From a virus, in IMG/VR virus record IMGVR_UViG_3300044614_000081, positions 1-26,374 of that record: a DNA stretch of 26,374 nt. One strand, given 5' to 3'. Below are positions 28 to 12,613 of the stretch, piece after piece; the stretch's first letter is position 1; every line of letters starts with the position of its first letter. The notes under the pieces are model-generated. The model did not search any database, was not told the DNA's origin, and saw nothing but the letters and a program-made list of their open reading frames with translations. Position numbers and translations under genes: made by a program.

Positions 28-498
28 ATGACTACCGACACCTATGCAATCGAACGCCTGATGAAACAGCAGCTAGACGGCAACTTCTGGAGCTTTGATG
101 TAGAAGGCCGCATCGTCTGGAATGATGTCGCGGTTGACTTCATCCCGCAGTTCAAACGCTACACATGGACGGATGGCGAGGAAGATCGGCCCAAGGCGCA
201 AATCGTTCGCCGCGATTGGTCGATGGAGGACTTTCAGCGTATGGAGAAGCTGAGGATCAAGGGCAGATCATGGAAGGACATTGCCAGGAACTTTGGAGCA
301 AGCGACACGGCCACGAGCGATTATTACAAGCGCGTCATTGCCCAGCAAGATGCGAACATGACTAAGGAAGTCACGATCAGGCGGATGAAGATCGTCAAGT
401 GGCTGCATGATCAAGCCACACCAGTGAAAACCATTTGCCTGTTGATGGGCTACGAGCGAAGGTTGGTTGAGAGCGTGACAGGGAGGGAAGGGGAATGA
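28..498 (+). CDS. Hypothetical protein with helix-turn-helix-like segment
   Basis: I do not recognise the family of this 156-residue protein. The N-terminal 50 residues are aromatic-rich and of mixed charge. From about residue 63 there is a basic helical stretch (RRDWSMEDFQRMEKLRIKG) followed by RSWKDIARNFGAS, which reads like the recognition part of a helix-turn-helix. A second short helical unit at the C-terminus (TPVKTICLLMGYERRLVESV) looks similar, so a small DNA-binding role is possible. This is inference from pattern only. Its stop overlaps the start of the downstream nuclease gene by four bases (ATGA), so the two are probably co-translated. The 27 bases before the start are all that is visible upstream, so no promoter can be judged. 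Confidence 0.7.
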   Translation: MTTDTYAIERLMKQQLDGNFWSFDVEGRIVWNDVAVDFIPQFKRYTWTDGEEDRPKAQIVRRDWSMEDFQRMEKLRIKGRSWKDIARNFGASDTATSDYYKRVIAQQDANMTKEVTIRRMKIVKWLHDQATPVKTICLLMGYERRLVESVTGREGE

Positions 499-1424
499 AA
501 CTAGACATGACATCGCCAATCGTAAAGGCGATCTATCAGCGATACGAAGAGAACCGCCGCAACGCACACAGGCCGCATCTTGGCGGGTCGCAGATCGGGA
601 ACATCTGTTCTCGCGCGCTTTGGTATCAATTCCGGTGGACCTATACCGAGAAGCAAGAAGGCCGCATCTTGCGCCTCTTCGAGACGGGCGAACGCGAGGA
701 AGGACGGGTGATCCAGAACTTGCGCGCCGCCGGTTGCACCGTCTGGGATCGCGATCCGGCAACAGGCCAGCAGTTCCGATATACGGCGGTTGGCGGGCAT
801 TTTGCCTTGAGCCTGGACGGAGTGGTCGAGGGCTTGCCGGAAAGTTCCAAGGTCCACACGCTCGAAGTGAAGACCATGAGCGAGAAGTATTTCAAGGTGC
901 TTTGCAACCTCGGCGTCGAAAAGGCGAAGCCGGTCTATTATGCACAGTGCCAGATCGGAATGCACTTGAGTGGGCTGGATCGCTGCCTGTTCATTTCTGT
1001 CAACAAGAACACCGATGAGATTTATGCCGAGCGGTTGAAGGTCGATCATGCCTTTGCAGAGTCGCTTATTGAGAAGGCCAGGAAGATCATATCGACCGAA
1101 CGGCCCCCGCTTGGAATCAGCAACGATCCGGCGTGGTTTGAGTGCAAGTTCTGCCCTTATCATTCGATCTGCCACGGAGATGGCGCTGCGGAACTGAACT
1201 GCCGCACATGCGCCTTTTCGACGGCAGAGACTCAAGGCTGGTCCTGCGCCAGGCACAAGAAGGCACTCGATGAGATCGACCAGCGCAGCGGCTGCGGTGA
1301 TCACATCTACAATCCGGCACTGGTCAAGCTGCCGGTGCATGACACCGGCGAGGATTGGATCGACTACATCAACGAAGACGGCGAGATCGTGCGGAACAAG
1401 GGCAGGGAGTTTAGCACATGCTAG
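495..1424 (+). CDS. PD-(D/E)XK nuclease, Cas4/RecB-like, with Fe-S-type and zinc-type cysteine sets
   Basis: Likely a DNA exonuclease of the PD-(D/E)XK superfamily acting in phage DNA replication or recombination. Visible core: D108 in SLDG, then E124-V-K126, then Q151/Q153 in YYAQCQIGM. Cys38 in the NICSRALWY segment plus Cys217, Cys220 and Cys226 (CKFCPYHSIC) match the one-plus-three arrangement that binds a 4Fe-4S cluster in Cas4 and AddB. A second set follows, Cys236, Cys239, Cys251 and Cys267, likely a small zinc module. No CRISPR array or other cas gene is present, so a CRISPR role is not supported. The gene overlaps the helicase start by seven bases, suggesting a nuclease-helicase pair. 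The exact substrate polarity cannot be read from the sequence. Confidence 0.88.
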   Translation: MKLDMTSPIVKAIYQRYEENRRNAHRPHLGGSQIGNICSRALWYQFRWTYTEKQEGRILRLFETGEREEGRVIQNLRAAGCTVWDRDPATGQQFRYTAVGGHFALSLDGVVEGLPESSKVHTLEVKTMSEKYFKVLCNLGVEKAKPVYYAQCQIGMHLSGLDRCLFISVNKNTDEIYAERLKVDHAFAESLIEKARKIISTERPPLGISNDPAWFECKFCPYHSICHGDGAAELNCRTCAFSTAETQGWSCARHKKALDEIDQRSGCGDHIYNPALVKLPVHDTGEDWIDYINEDGEIVRNKGREFSTC

Positions 1425-3043
1425 AACTCCGCCCCTATCAACGCGCCGCGATTGATGGCCTATACAATTATTGGTCAGACAAGAAGGGTGACAACCCGAT
1501 CATCGTCGCACCGACTGGCTCGGGAAAGAGCCTCATCATCGCGCACCTGATCAAGGATGCGATGAGTTATCCCGGCACGCGCGTTTTGATTTTGACGCAT
1601 GTCAAAGAGTTGCTGGAGCAGAACGCCAGTGAATTGGTTGCGCTTTATCCAGAAGCAGATGTCGGCTTCTACAGCGCCAGCCTCAAGAAGAAAGTGCTGC
1701 GGAAGCCGATCACGTTCGCGGGCATCCAGTCGATCCACAAGAAGGCTTATGACATGGTGCCAGCGCCTGATCTGGTGATCGTAGACGAGGCGCACCTGAT
1801 CCCGAAGACAGACGGCACACGCTACAATAAGTTCCTCTCCGATCTTCGCATATGCAATCGCGGTGTTAAGGTGGTTGGCCTCACGGCTACGCCCTACCGA
1901 CTCGATAGCGGATGGCTGCACGAAGGCGACAACGCGATCTTTGACGGCATTGCATACGATATTCCGGTTGCTGATCTCATGGATCAAGGCTTCCTGGCCC
2001 CGGTGATTAGCAAGAGCGGCGTCAAGACCATCGACCTATCGAACGTCGGCAAACGCGGCGGGGAATATATCGAGAGCGAACTAGCCAAGGCCGCATCAGA
2101 CCCGGAATTGGTAACAGAAACGGTTGCAGAAATCGTGCGCTATGGTGCGGAGCGCAAGGCGTGGCTAGTCTTCGCTTGCGGTGTCAATCACGCCGAGTTG
2201 CTCCGTGCCGAGTTCGAGACGCACGGCATCGAGGCGGATGTCGTGACTGGTGCCGATGGCATGAGCGCACGCGCCGACAAGATCGAGCGGTTCCGGCGTG
2301 GCGGAAGCAAGTGCTTGATCAATGTGAACGTCTTGACCACGGGCTTCAATGTCCCGCATGTCGATCTTGTGGCAATCGTGAGGGCCACCGAAAGCACCGG
2401 CCTTTACATCCAGATCGTCGGACGCGGCACACGCATTGCGCCGGGGAAAGAGAACTGCCTGGTGCTGGACTACGGCGACAACGTGATGCGCCACGGGTTC
2501 ATCGACAAGATCAAGCCGAAGATCAAAGGCCGCACGGAGGACGGTCAAGCGCCGGTTAAGAAATGCCCAGAATGTTTGACTGTCAATCATGCCGCCGTTA
2601 GAGTGTGCATCGAGTGCGGCCATGAATTCCCGCCTCCGCAGTTCAACCACGGAACGAAGGCATATTCTGGCGCGATGATCTCCACACAGGTACAGGCCGA
2701 ATGGGTTGACGTTGACGATGTGGGCTATTCCCGCTGGCGCAAGGAAGGCAAGCCAGATAGCATCCGCGTCACCTATTATTGCGGCCTGATCAAGGTCTCT
2801 GAGTGGCTATGCCCTGACCACGGAGGCTATGCTGCGGAGCGATACCAGAAGCGGATGCCATCGCTAGGAGCGTCTGCCATGACCACCGAAGACGCCATGC
2901 AAGAGTGCGACCACTGGATCAAGCCGCGCAGGATAAAGGTGAAGCCGAATGACAAGTTCCACGACATTGTACAACTCGACTATAGCCAGCCCAAGCGCCT
3001 CACCGCCGAAGAGTTGGCAGAACTACAAGAGCCGCTGTTCTGA
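1418..3043 (+). CDS. Superfamily 2 DEAD/DEAH-box helicase
   Basis: ATP-dependent nucleic-acid helicase of 541 residues. Motifs in order: an N-terminal LRPYQRAAI Q-motif-like segment, Walker A APTGSGKS at 31-38, DEAH at 123-126, motif III GLTATPYR at 154-161, and motif VI QIVGRGTR at 332-339. A four-cysteine zinc finger follows (Cys383, Cys386, Cys397, Cys400). The last 140 residues form an extra domain rich in aromatic residues (VTYYCGLIKVSEWLCPDHGG) that I see only as an accessory region. The gene lies directly behind the Cas4-like nuclease with overlapping codons and ahead of a VRR-NUC nuclease, which fits a replication or recombination module. Its 3' end is overlapped in another frame by a probable small gene. 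Confidence 0.93.
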   Translation: MLELRPYQRAAIDGLYNYWSDKKGDNPIIVAPTGSGKSLIIAHLIKDAMSYPGTRVLILTHVKELLEQNASELVALYPEADVGFYSASLKKKVLRKPITFAGIQSIHKKAYDMVPAPDLVIVDEAHLIPKTDGTRYNKFLSDLRICNRGVKVVGLTATPYRLDSGWLHEGDNAIFDGIAYDIPVADLMDQGFLAPVISKSGVKTIDLSNVGKRGGEYIESELAKAASDPELVTETVAEIVRYGAERKAWLVFACGVNHAELLRAEFETHGIEADVVTGADGMSARADKIERFRRGGSKCLINVNVLTTGFNVPHVDLVAIVRATESTGLYIQIVGRGTRIAPGKENCLVLDYGDNVMRHGFIDKIKPKIKGRTEDGQAPVKKCPECLTVNHAAVRVCIECGHEFPPPQFNHGTKAYSGAMISTQVQAEWVDVDDVGYSRWRKEGKPDSIRVTYYCGLIKVSEWLCPDHGGYAAERYQKRMPSLGASAMTTEDAMQECDHWIKPRRIKVKPNDKFHDIVQLDYSQPKRLTAEELAELQEPLF

Positions 3044-3152
3044 TTGCGTGAGCCTGTACGATGCTCGATATTGCACTCATTGGCGTGACGTTGTACCTGA
3101 TGATGTACAGAAAGAAGGCTGCGATGCGTTCAACGGTTTCCCTCCCTTCTGA
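2949..3152 (+). CDS. Probable small four-cysteine zinc-motif protein overlapping the helicase end
   Basis: A 67-residue reading frame that covers the last 95 bases of the helicase gene and runs past its stop. The half beyond the helicase overlap carries CSDC, then eight residues to CTHW, then exactly 15 residues to a final cysteine in QKEGCDAF. The Cas4-like nuclease upstream ends with the same plan: CRTC, then CARH, then 15 residues to the cysteine in QRSGC. The shared 15-residue spacing, the Q four before the cysteine and the G just before it are hard to explain by chance. AAAGGTG lies just ahead of the ATG, though the true start could be further in. The N-terminal third is Ser/Thr-rich and may not be translated. 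The function is unknown; a zinc-binding partner for a nuclease or helicase is a guess. Confidence 0.55.
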   Translation: MTSSTTLYNSTIASPSASPPKSWQNYKSRCSDCVSLYDARYCTHWRDVVPDDVQKEGCDAFNGFPPF

Positions 3153-3495
3153 GCATGACGAGCAAGCCGGATTCGTTCAATGGTTCCGCGCCAAGTGGCC
3201 TCGTGTATTGATCTTTGCAATACCGAACGGCGGCAAGCGCAACATCTCGACGGCAAAGAAGCTGAAGGCCGAAGGCGTTGTTCCTGGCGTTCCAGACCTG
3301 TTCATTCCGGCATGGGGAATCTGGATCGAGATGAAGCGCCAGAAAGGCGGGCGAACTTCATCGGATCAAGACGGCATGATTTCATACTTGGAAAGCATCG
3401 GCCATCACGTTATTGTTGGCTATGGCGCAACCGATGCCAGCGACAAGCTGCTGTCTTTGTTGAATGTGAGCGGGGCGGCGACTAAAGGAGGATAG
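3124..3495 (+). CDS. VRR-NUC domain nuclease
   Basis: A 123-residue single-domain nuclease of the VRR-NUC branch of the PD-(D/E)XK superfamily, a family linked to Holliday-junction or replication-fork cleavage in phages. Visible motifs: HDEQAGFVQWFRAKWP near the N-terminus, the IPNGGKRN turn, GVVPGVPDLF with the metal-binding Asp58, and WIEMKRQKGG with Glu69 and Lys71. The length is typical of the standalone phage form. The frame is open from ATG 3061, but that start has no ribosome-binding site and adds an unrelated hydrophobic leader. ATG 3124 has AGAAGG five bases upstream and is preferred. The first bases overlap the probable zinc-motif gene. Confidence 0.88.
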   Translation: MRSTVSLPSEHDEQAGFVQWFRAKWPRVLIFAIPNGGKRNISTAKKLKAEGVVPGVPDLFIPAWGIWIEMKRQKGGRTSSDQDGMISYLESIGHHVIVGYGATDASDKLLSLLNVSGAATKGG

Positions 3496-11557: not shown

Positions 11558-12159
11558 GGCGTTCCTGCCATTTCAATCCAGTTGGTCCCGTCACAAACAA
11601 GCAATGCCCATGCGCCATCGGTGTTTGGCAAAATAGGAGTGCTAGCTCCTCCGCCTTCGCGCGGGACTACATTGCCAGATGCCGACACAACTGTCTGAGC
11701 CTGTGTGGTAGAAATCACGAGAATGCGGCCTGTATTGCTTGCAGGTGTCGGAAGCGTGAGCGTGTTTGATGACCCCGTGCGGTTGCTTATGATGAATGTC
11801 ACGCCAGCCGCAACCGTGTAATCTGTCGTGACAGTCACCGGAGCAGCAAGGGCAAACGATCCGTTGACTTGCAGCTTCGCCGTTGGCGTTGCCGTGCCGA
11901 TGCCCACGCGATCAGTGGATGCGTCTACGAAAACAAGGTTGGCGTCTGTGTCGCCTTCGATGCGTTGGTCTACATCAGCGCCAGCATCGTTGAAGACGTT
12001 TGCCCCTGCGAATGATGCAGCCGGAACATTCTGAAACAACTCCGCGCGCGTCTGCTTCTTGGTCTCGGGGACGCTTGTGTCCACCACCACATAAAGGTCA
12101 TCCGTGGCCGTGTTGGCCCCGGTCAGTGCTGATAGTGCTGAAATTTTGATGTCAGGCAC
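11554..12159 (-). CDS. Tail-fibre-like structural protein
   Basis: A 201-residue protein from a GTG start with AAGGAG seven bases upstream. It opens MPDIKISALSALTGANTATD, and the middle contains VGIGTATPTAKLQVNGS, a phrase that recurs in trimeric tail fibres and appendage proteins. The rest is beta-rich with many Thr, Val and Ser. It lies between the HNH gene and the distal tail gene. Its ribosome-binding site is inside the last codons of the HNH gene, so the endonuclease must have been inserted, or extended, right up to this start. The exact virion location is unknown. Confidence 0.7.
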   Translation of the reverse strand: MPDIKISALSALTGANTATDDLYVVVDTSVPETKKQTRAELFQNVPAASFAGANVFNDAGADVDQRIEGDTDANLVFVDASTDRVGIGTATPTAKLQVNGSFALAAPVTVTTDYTVAAGVTFIISNRTGSSNTLTLPTPASNTGRILVISTTQAQTVVSASGNVVPREGGGASTPILPNTDGAWALLVCDGTNWIEMAGTP

Positions 12160-12613
12160 AGGCTGTCTCCTTATTTATCTCAAGTGCAACATCAATAGGC
12201 CAGTTAAGGCCGTATATGCGCTGGCGTACCGTGCTTGACTTTAGGTTCTTATATGCGATCCATTTTTCAAGCGTGCGTGTTTCTCCATTTATAGTAATTA
12301 GTCGGCTTGAACGCCTGTTGTTTGCCTGTTCATTCTTGTCTGCCCATTTGCAATTTTCAGGGCTGTATCCGCGATTGTTATCAATTCTCTCTAACCCCAA
12401 TCCAGGCTGATAACTGCCTACCATATCCTGATAGAAATTCTCAAGAATGTTCCATCTTTCACAAAGCGTGATCCCGCGAGCACCATAGTTCTTAAAGTGA
12501 CAATGATCTGGGTTACTTGTGCGGTGCTTCACGCCATACCAAATGTTGCGAAGCCGCTGAAAGTGTGGCCTTTCCAACAACGATGTCGGCAATGCTTTAT
12601 GCGTCCGTCCCAT
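12152..12613 (-). CDS. HNH-type homing endonuclease with C-terminal DNA-binding repeat
   Basis: A 153-residue free-standing endonuclease of the phage/intron HNH type. Recognisable blocks: WYGVKHRTSNPDHCHFKNYG, GARGITLCERW at 44-54, and RIDNNRGYSPENCKWA at 76-91, the core carrying Asp78 and Asn87. After EQANNRR the C-terminus (LITINGETRTLEKWIAYKNL) matches the NUMOD-like DNA-binding repeat found in such enzymes. The gene lies between tape measure and tail-fibre genes. Its ATG overlaps the tape-measure stop by one base (TGATG) and its end overlaps the next start by eight. The coding DNA is clearly more AT-rich than its neighbours, a sign of separate origin. Confidence 0.88.
   Translation of the reverse strand: MGRTHKALPTSLLERPHFQRLRNIWYGVKHRTSNPDHCHFKNYGARGITLCERWNILENFYQDMVGSYQPGLGLERIDNNRGYSPENCKWADKNEQANNRRSSRLITINGETRTLEKWIAYKNLKSSTVRQRIYGLNWPIDVALEINKETACA

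Follow-up and report, generated by a model that had tools for sequence, protein, structure and literature searches.

In the window, the whole 26,374-nucleotide stretch of DNA from an IMG/VR virus record analyzed here, a Cas4-like exonuclease gene (phrog_1990; 495..1424, plus strand) is followed by a ResIII/SF2 helicase gene (phrog_16; 1418..3043, plus strand) and a VRR-NUC nuclease gene (phrog_824; 3124..3495, plus strand). A further open reading frame (ORF), which would encode a stand-alone four-cysteine protein of 67 codons, runs on the same strand from ATG 2949 to a TGA ending at 3152 (2949..3152). It shares 95 nucleotides with the helicase gene, in relative frame +1, and 29 nucleotides (3124..3152, plus strand) with the beginning of the VRR-NUC gene. 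The latter gene likely starts at ATG 3124, which has AGAAGG just 5′ of it, given that conservation of VRR-NUC in relatives begins at the matching position. A first-pass annotation of this DNA had already proposed the 67-codon frame as a hidden gene, and its coordinates, length and sequence for the frame proved exact, as did its 95-base overlap with the helicase gene. A Shine-Dalgarno-like AAGGTGA (2936..2942, plus strand) lies 6 nucleotides 5′ of ATG 2949. AAGG-like bases occur a few nucleotides 5′ of the ORF's ATG in most relatives, and the same bases are helicase codons.

The cysteines of the ORF are at residues 30, 33, 42 and 58, with gaps of 2, 8 and 15, and the module has the pattern C-x2-C-x8-C-x15-C...PPF-stop. 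Residues 30-67 (3036..3149, plus strand), comprising the four-cysteine module and the C-terminal PPF, stand out by invariant columns, dN/dS and profile matches. They are preceded by a leader of ~28 residues that overlaps the helicase gene (2949..3043, plus strand). A comparable module lies within the Cas4-like exonuclease (C236, C239, C251 and C267; 1200..1295, plus strand). The first-pass annotation had described the cysteine pattern of both proteins, correctly in each case. The helicase has its own CxxC...CxxC ribbon, at residues ~381-406.

The deep overlap has a practical consequence. Prodigal allows same-strand overlaps of at most 60 bp (PMC2848648), and a gene starting at ATG 2949 needs 95 nucleotides, so it cannot be called whole. 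The earlier suggestion that gene callers would miss it is thus borne out. More broadly, a conserved family is dropped by standard callers once its gene slides deep enough into the helicase gene.

A scan with the 67-amino-acid protein matched 39 viral contigs, and after a profile scan the total came to 49 IMG/VR contigs and one contig from a Sphingomonadaceae MAG, all with an intact ORF. Relatives were also picked by a separate helicase scan, which makes the sample unbiased towards the ORF. All helicase-picked relatives that reach the helicase 3′ end have an intact ORF, except for one outlier whose helicase is 29% identical and in which no ORF match was found. Eight divergent lineages (L064, L065, L068, L069, L072, L125, L130 and L040) keep C30, C33, C42 and C58 and also retain LYD, YC, WRD.VP, GC and PPF. 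The frame is unbroken in every relative found and its homologs keep all four cysteines, the reverse of the two outcomes that the first-pass annotation had named as evidence against a gene.

The ORF also persists where its surroundings differ. In L040, an unrelated gene lies 3′ of the ORF and the VRR-NUC start is ~380 nucleotides further on; the module and PPF are retained, and the stop is TAG. In L028, where the VRR-NUC gene contains a Cys-rich insert, the ORF is unchanged. This insert (L028 322-1239) is ribbon-like, spans ~150 residues and lies between the VRR-NUC start and the nuclease domain. A separate peculiarity of these relatives is that the L130 helicase (1-2460) has an apparent in-frame intein (C|LAEGQKVL... 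to LVSN|C). A 266-amino-acid HNH-like frame (L130 1067-1867) lies out of frame over this intein-bearing helicase and resembles hidden HNH insertions (PMC11855218).

The ORF is under purifying selection outside the overlaps. Over the 26 codons outside both neighboring genes (18 distinct sequences), dN/dS is 0.155 in the ORF frame, while the other two frames have values of 1.01 and 1.41 and contain 17 and 45 stops. Among the eight divergent lineages pN/pS is 0.24 (bootstrap 0.13-0.36), and the signal survives removal of the cysteine codons. The situation in the helicase overlap is different: changes there fall at helicase third positions, the ORF-frame dN/dS is 1.44, and the helicase dS is not lowered (0.83, versus 0.53 upstream). 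The leader's 28 residues are therefore not selected at the protein level, yet neither the ATG nor the open frame has been lost. This is the result of the third-position comparison that the first-pass annotation had suggested for the overlap; selection on the ORF appears only beyond it. Since the leader lacks protein-level selection, the functional part would be the last ~39 residues.

An unselected leader is also what would be expected if the frame were non-coding, i.e., if it stayed open as a by-product of constraints on the helicase and VRR-NUC. In addition, the PSEH of VRR-NUC favors PF-stop in the ORF frame, so that where the genes overlap this ending is partly dictated by the nuclease. 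The Roseobacter phage CRP-901, which has the closest annotated helicase, illustrates the effect: there is no room for the ORF between its helicase and VRR-NUC genes, and phrog_23504, a family discussed below, is unmatched throughout its genome. Nevertheless, the last residues of its helicase, in the overlap with VRR-NUC, are IPF, which urges caution with the PF-stop because VRR-NUC partly sets it. However, the PF-stop is also kept in phages without that overlap, the ORF is conserved and annotated as a gene in phages that have no adjacent VRR-NUC, and purifying selection acts in the ORF frame where no gene overlaps. We therefore give the non-coding explanation hardly any credence. Given the conserved cysteines and the selection outside the overlaps, the frame is almost certainly a real gene, as first proposed, and it is probably translated.

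As to where translation begins, synthesis would most likely start at ATG 2949 within the helicase gene, from a ribosome-binding site carried by the helicase mRNA. In two lineages (L068 and L072), the equivalent ATG is the sole usual start 5′ of the first cysteine. When helicase codons were resampled synonymously, the chance of having both this ATG and an open frame to Cys30 was 0.04-0.10 in seven lineages and 0.38 in L040; both features are retained in 8/8 lineages, which are not fully independent of one another. A different start is conceivable five bases 3′ of the helicase stop, at position 3048, where a GTG or ATG could give, by translational coupling, a 34-residue protein that lacks the CxxC. 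A start-like codon is present there in many relatives, and coupling often works through a translational restart near the preceding stop. However, L069 has an Ile codon at the corresponding position and L040 a Leu codon other than TTG, and the upstream frame is held open against the odds. Moreover, the CxxC is found in all relatives from other phages. It is conserved even where both of its cysteines lie downstream of the helicase stop (L065/L073 and L069/L070), outside the helicase gene. A start at 3048 is accordingly improbable.

Hypothetical proteins with the same module and an [IVP]PF end occur in phages of Alteromonas, Idiomarinaceae, Vibrio, Achromobacter, Escherichia, Xanthomonas and Aminobacter (phrog_23504, phrog_31018). 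Most of their genes are directly 3′ of a helicase gene and overlap it by 4-59 nucleotides, nearly always in relative frame +1. The helicase and VRR-NUC genes of Alteromonas phage PB15 and Idiomarinaceae phage 1N2-2 flank a gene annotated as encoding a hypothetical protein, of 121-123 amino acids, which has the module at its end. In the Vibrio phages CA8, VpKK5, K251 and 1.207.B, as well as in phiAxp-1, Halfdan and Pfeifenkraut, the helicase is followed by a shorter, stand-alone form. Several of the stand-alone proteins are assigned to phrog_23504. The gene is present but unannotated in XX1924, CGphi29 and MW202867.

The window ORF has the traits of this family, namely the four-cysteine module, PPF-stop in all relatives and a gene that is directly 3′ of an SF2 helicase gene and overlaps it. 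With phrog_23504 (73 residues; VpKK5, CA8, Halfdan, phiAxp-1) it shares C-x2-C...C...P...[GN]C, the [I/V/P]PF end, the size, and the position immediately after the helicase with an overlap that is usually in relative frame +1. The overlap differs in extent, as it is 95 nucleotides in the window and 4-38 in phrog_23504. Where phrog_23504 proteins have an N-terminal part of their own, the window ORF has its unconstrained leader. The phrog_31018 proteins (1N2-2 N22_046, PB15 APC46568) are like the window ORF in their slot between helicase and VRR-NUC, their C-terminal module and their overlap with the VRR-NUC start, but they have an additional N-terminal domain of ~80 residues (phrog_852-like) that the window ORF lacks.

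Profile comparisons support this kinship. With a profile of distant annotated members, from which relatives of the window ORF had been excluded, no other six-frame stretch of the window scored as well as the ORF (E 1.9e-5, compared with 0.06 for the runner-up). The hhalign comparison of near with distant members gave 95%, above 150/150 permutations that kept the cysteine columns. The phrog_23504 model did not match the 67-amino-acid window protein itself but did match its relatives (E 2.6e-4 to 4e-3); since this model matches 9/14 control genomes at E<=1, only stronger matches were used. Based on these comparisons, the window ORF very probably belongs, as a diverged member with an unusually deep overlap, to the known but uncharacterized phrog_23504/31018 family.

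Other searches returned little. Neither the ORF nor its relatives had a Pfam match above the cut-off, and matches to CARD_2, CFAP107 and herpes families fell below it and were taken as chance. A sequence search of the PDB gave chance matches only. Searching phages by tblastn with the 67-amino-acid protein gave three matches at chance level, one of which, to the Erebus exonuclease, hinted at the Cas4 module. Our literature search found no paper on the four-cysteine family.

In an alignment of Cas4-like proteins, eight cysteines of the exonuclease are invariant. The first set, C38, C217, C220 and C226, is of the Fe-S type and fits the arrangement in Cas4/AddB, where one Fe-S cysteine is N-terminal and the other three are C-terminal (PMC3466216). 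The second set, C236, C239, C251 and C267 (gaps of 2, 11 and 15), is separate and forms the module that resembles the ORF. When we scanned with a profile of this module (18 proteins, including that of the window), the window ORF (E 2.1e-5) was outscored only by the nuclease itself. Comparing the Cas4-like module by hhalign gave 88% against near and 91% against distant stand-alone members. The corresponding values, 27.7 and 29.2, exceed the permutation maxima of 19.0 and 17.6, and 0/150 cysteine-keeping permutations reached as high. Judged by these profiles, the likeness of the ORF to the exonuclease's C-terminus is genuine and goes beyond shared cysteine spacing.

The first-pass annotation had taken the matching 15-residue gap, with Q and G in register, as an argument that the frame is real. 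The gap and the Q are weak arguments by themselves, since the gap varies in both groups (the Cys3-Cys4 gap is ~7-10 in many Cas4-like proteins) and relatives of the ORF have R, L or M in place of the Q; it is the whole profile that supports the relation. The two modules share the four cysteines, an aromatic residue beside Cys3 and GC at Cys4. By contrast, the Cas4-like module is attached to a nuclease part, has [NST]CR[TS]C, extends beyond Cys4, has no PF-stop and varies in its Cys3-Cys4 gap. At 67 residues, the window ORF has no RecB-type core or Fe-S cysteines and has only the C-terminal module in common with phrog_1990, and would best be described as a stand-alone form of the neighboring exonuclease's C-terminal module. 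A homolog of this exonuclease in Roseobacter phage CRP-901 (L086 1709-2653) is annotated as an oxidoreductase.

The ORF had further been described as a copy of the nuclease motif. While the profiles bear out kinship, "copy" overstates it, as both forms occur together in many phages. The profile similarity could in principle reflect recent duplication of the window phage's own Cas4-like C-terminus. However, PB15, 1N2-2, CA8, Erebus and VpKK5 have stand-alone forms beside module-bearing Cas4-like proteins, and the PF-stop tail of the ORF is common to distant stand-alone forms and absent from Cas4-like proteins. Recent duplication is thus very improbable. Because both forms coexist in distant phages, the split between them looks old rather than the outcome of a recent local copy.

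It is likely, as far as the sequences indicate, that the ORF product binds metal. The cysteines, all four invariant, have a predicted hairpin between their two pairs, which points to a single structural zinc site. AlphaFold2 models were poor (pLDDT of 51 for the ORF and 50 for the Cas4-like protein) and lend no structural support to a fold or metal site.

The explanation that we favor, and consider somewhat probable overall, is a real small gene for a zinc-type module that is accessory to the helicase/exonuclease recombination module. An accessory role is suggested by the gene's position, its overlap and the module that it has in common with the Cas4-like exonuclease. The working part would be the ~39-residue four-cysteine module with the PF-stop tail of the family. 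The gene overlap might coordinate its synthesis with that of the helicase, and the product might serve as a small DNA-binding or docking accessory, with the helicase and exonuclease, in end-resection or recombination. That it works with these two enzymes is a plausible but tentative proposal in its own right. More speculatively, a free-standing version of the Cas4 module encoded in the helicase 3′ end could act in trans as a common docking or DNA-binding subunit for helicase and nuclease, the leader being a by-product of the helicase; we regard this as rather doubtful.

The idea of a helicase partner is weakened by family genes that lie away from the helicase, elsewhere in the replication block: in PBPA162 between queE and queC, in Erebus near RNase H and in MW202867 after sigma-70. 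These locations and the small size of the protein would also fit a small zinc module that is independent of the helicase, such as a counter-defense or transcription factor, that travels in the early replication block. However, most homologs are directly 3′ of the helicase gene and overlap it, and the module is common to the Cas4-like exonuclease. An independent factor is therefore a less likely alternative, though one to be taken seriously. The analysis also ties a small orphan family to the additional metal module found in phage exonucleases of the Cas4-like type, and this tie provides a testable starting point for studying the family's role in phage recombination.

Elsewhere in the window, a 153-amino-acid HNH-endonuclease-like frame (LERIDNNRGYSPENCKWA) lies among tail genes (12152-12613, minus strand). 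It is possibly a free-standing homing endonuclease.
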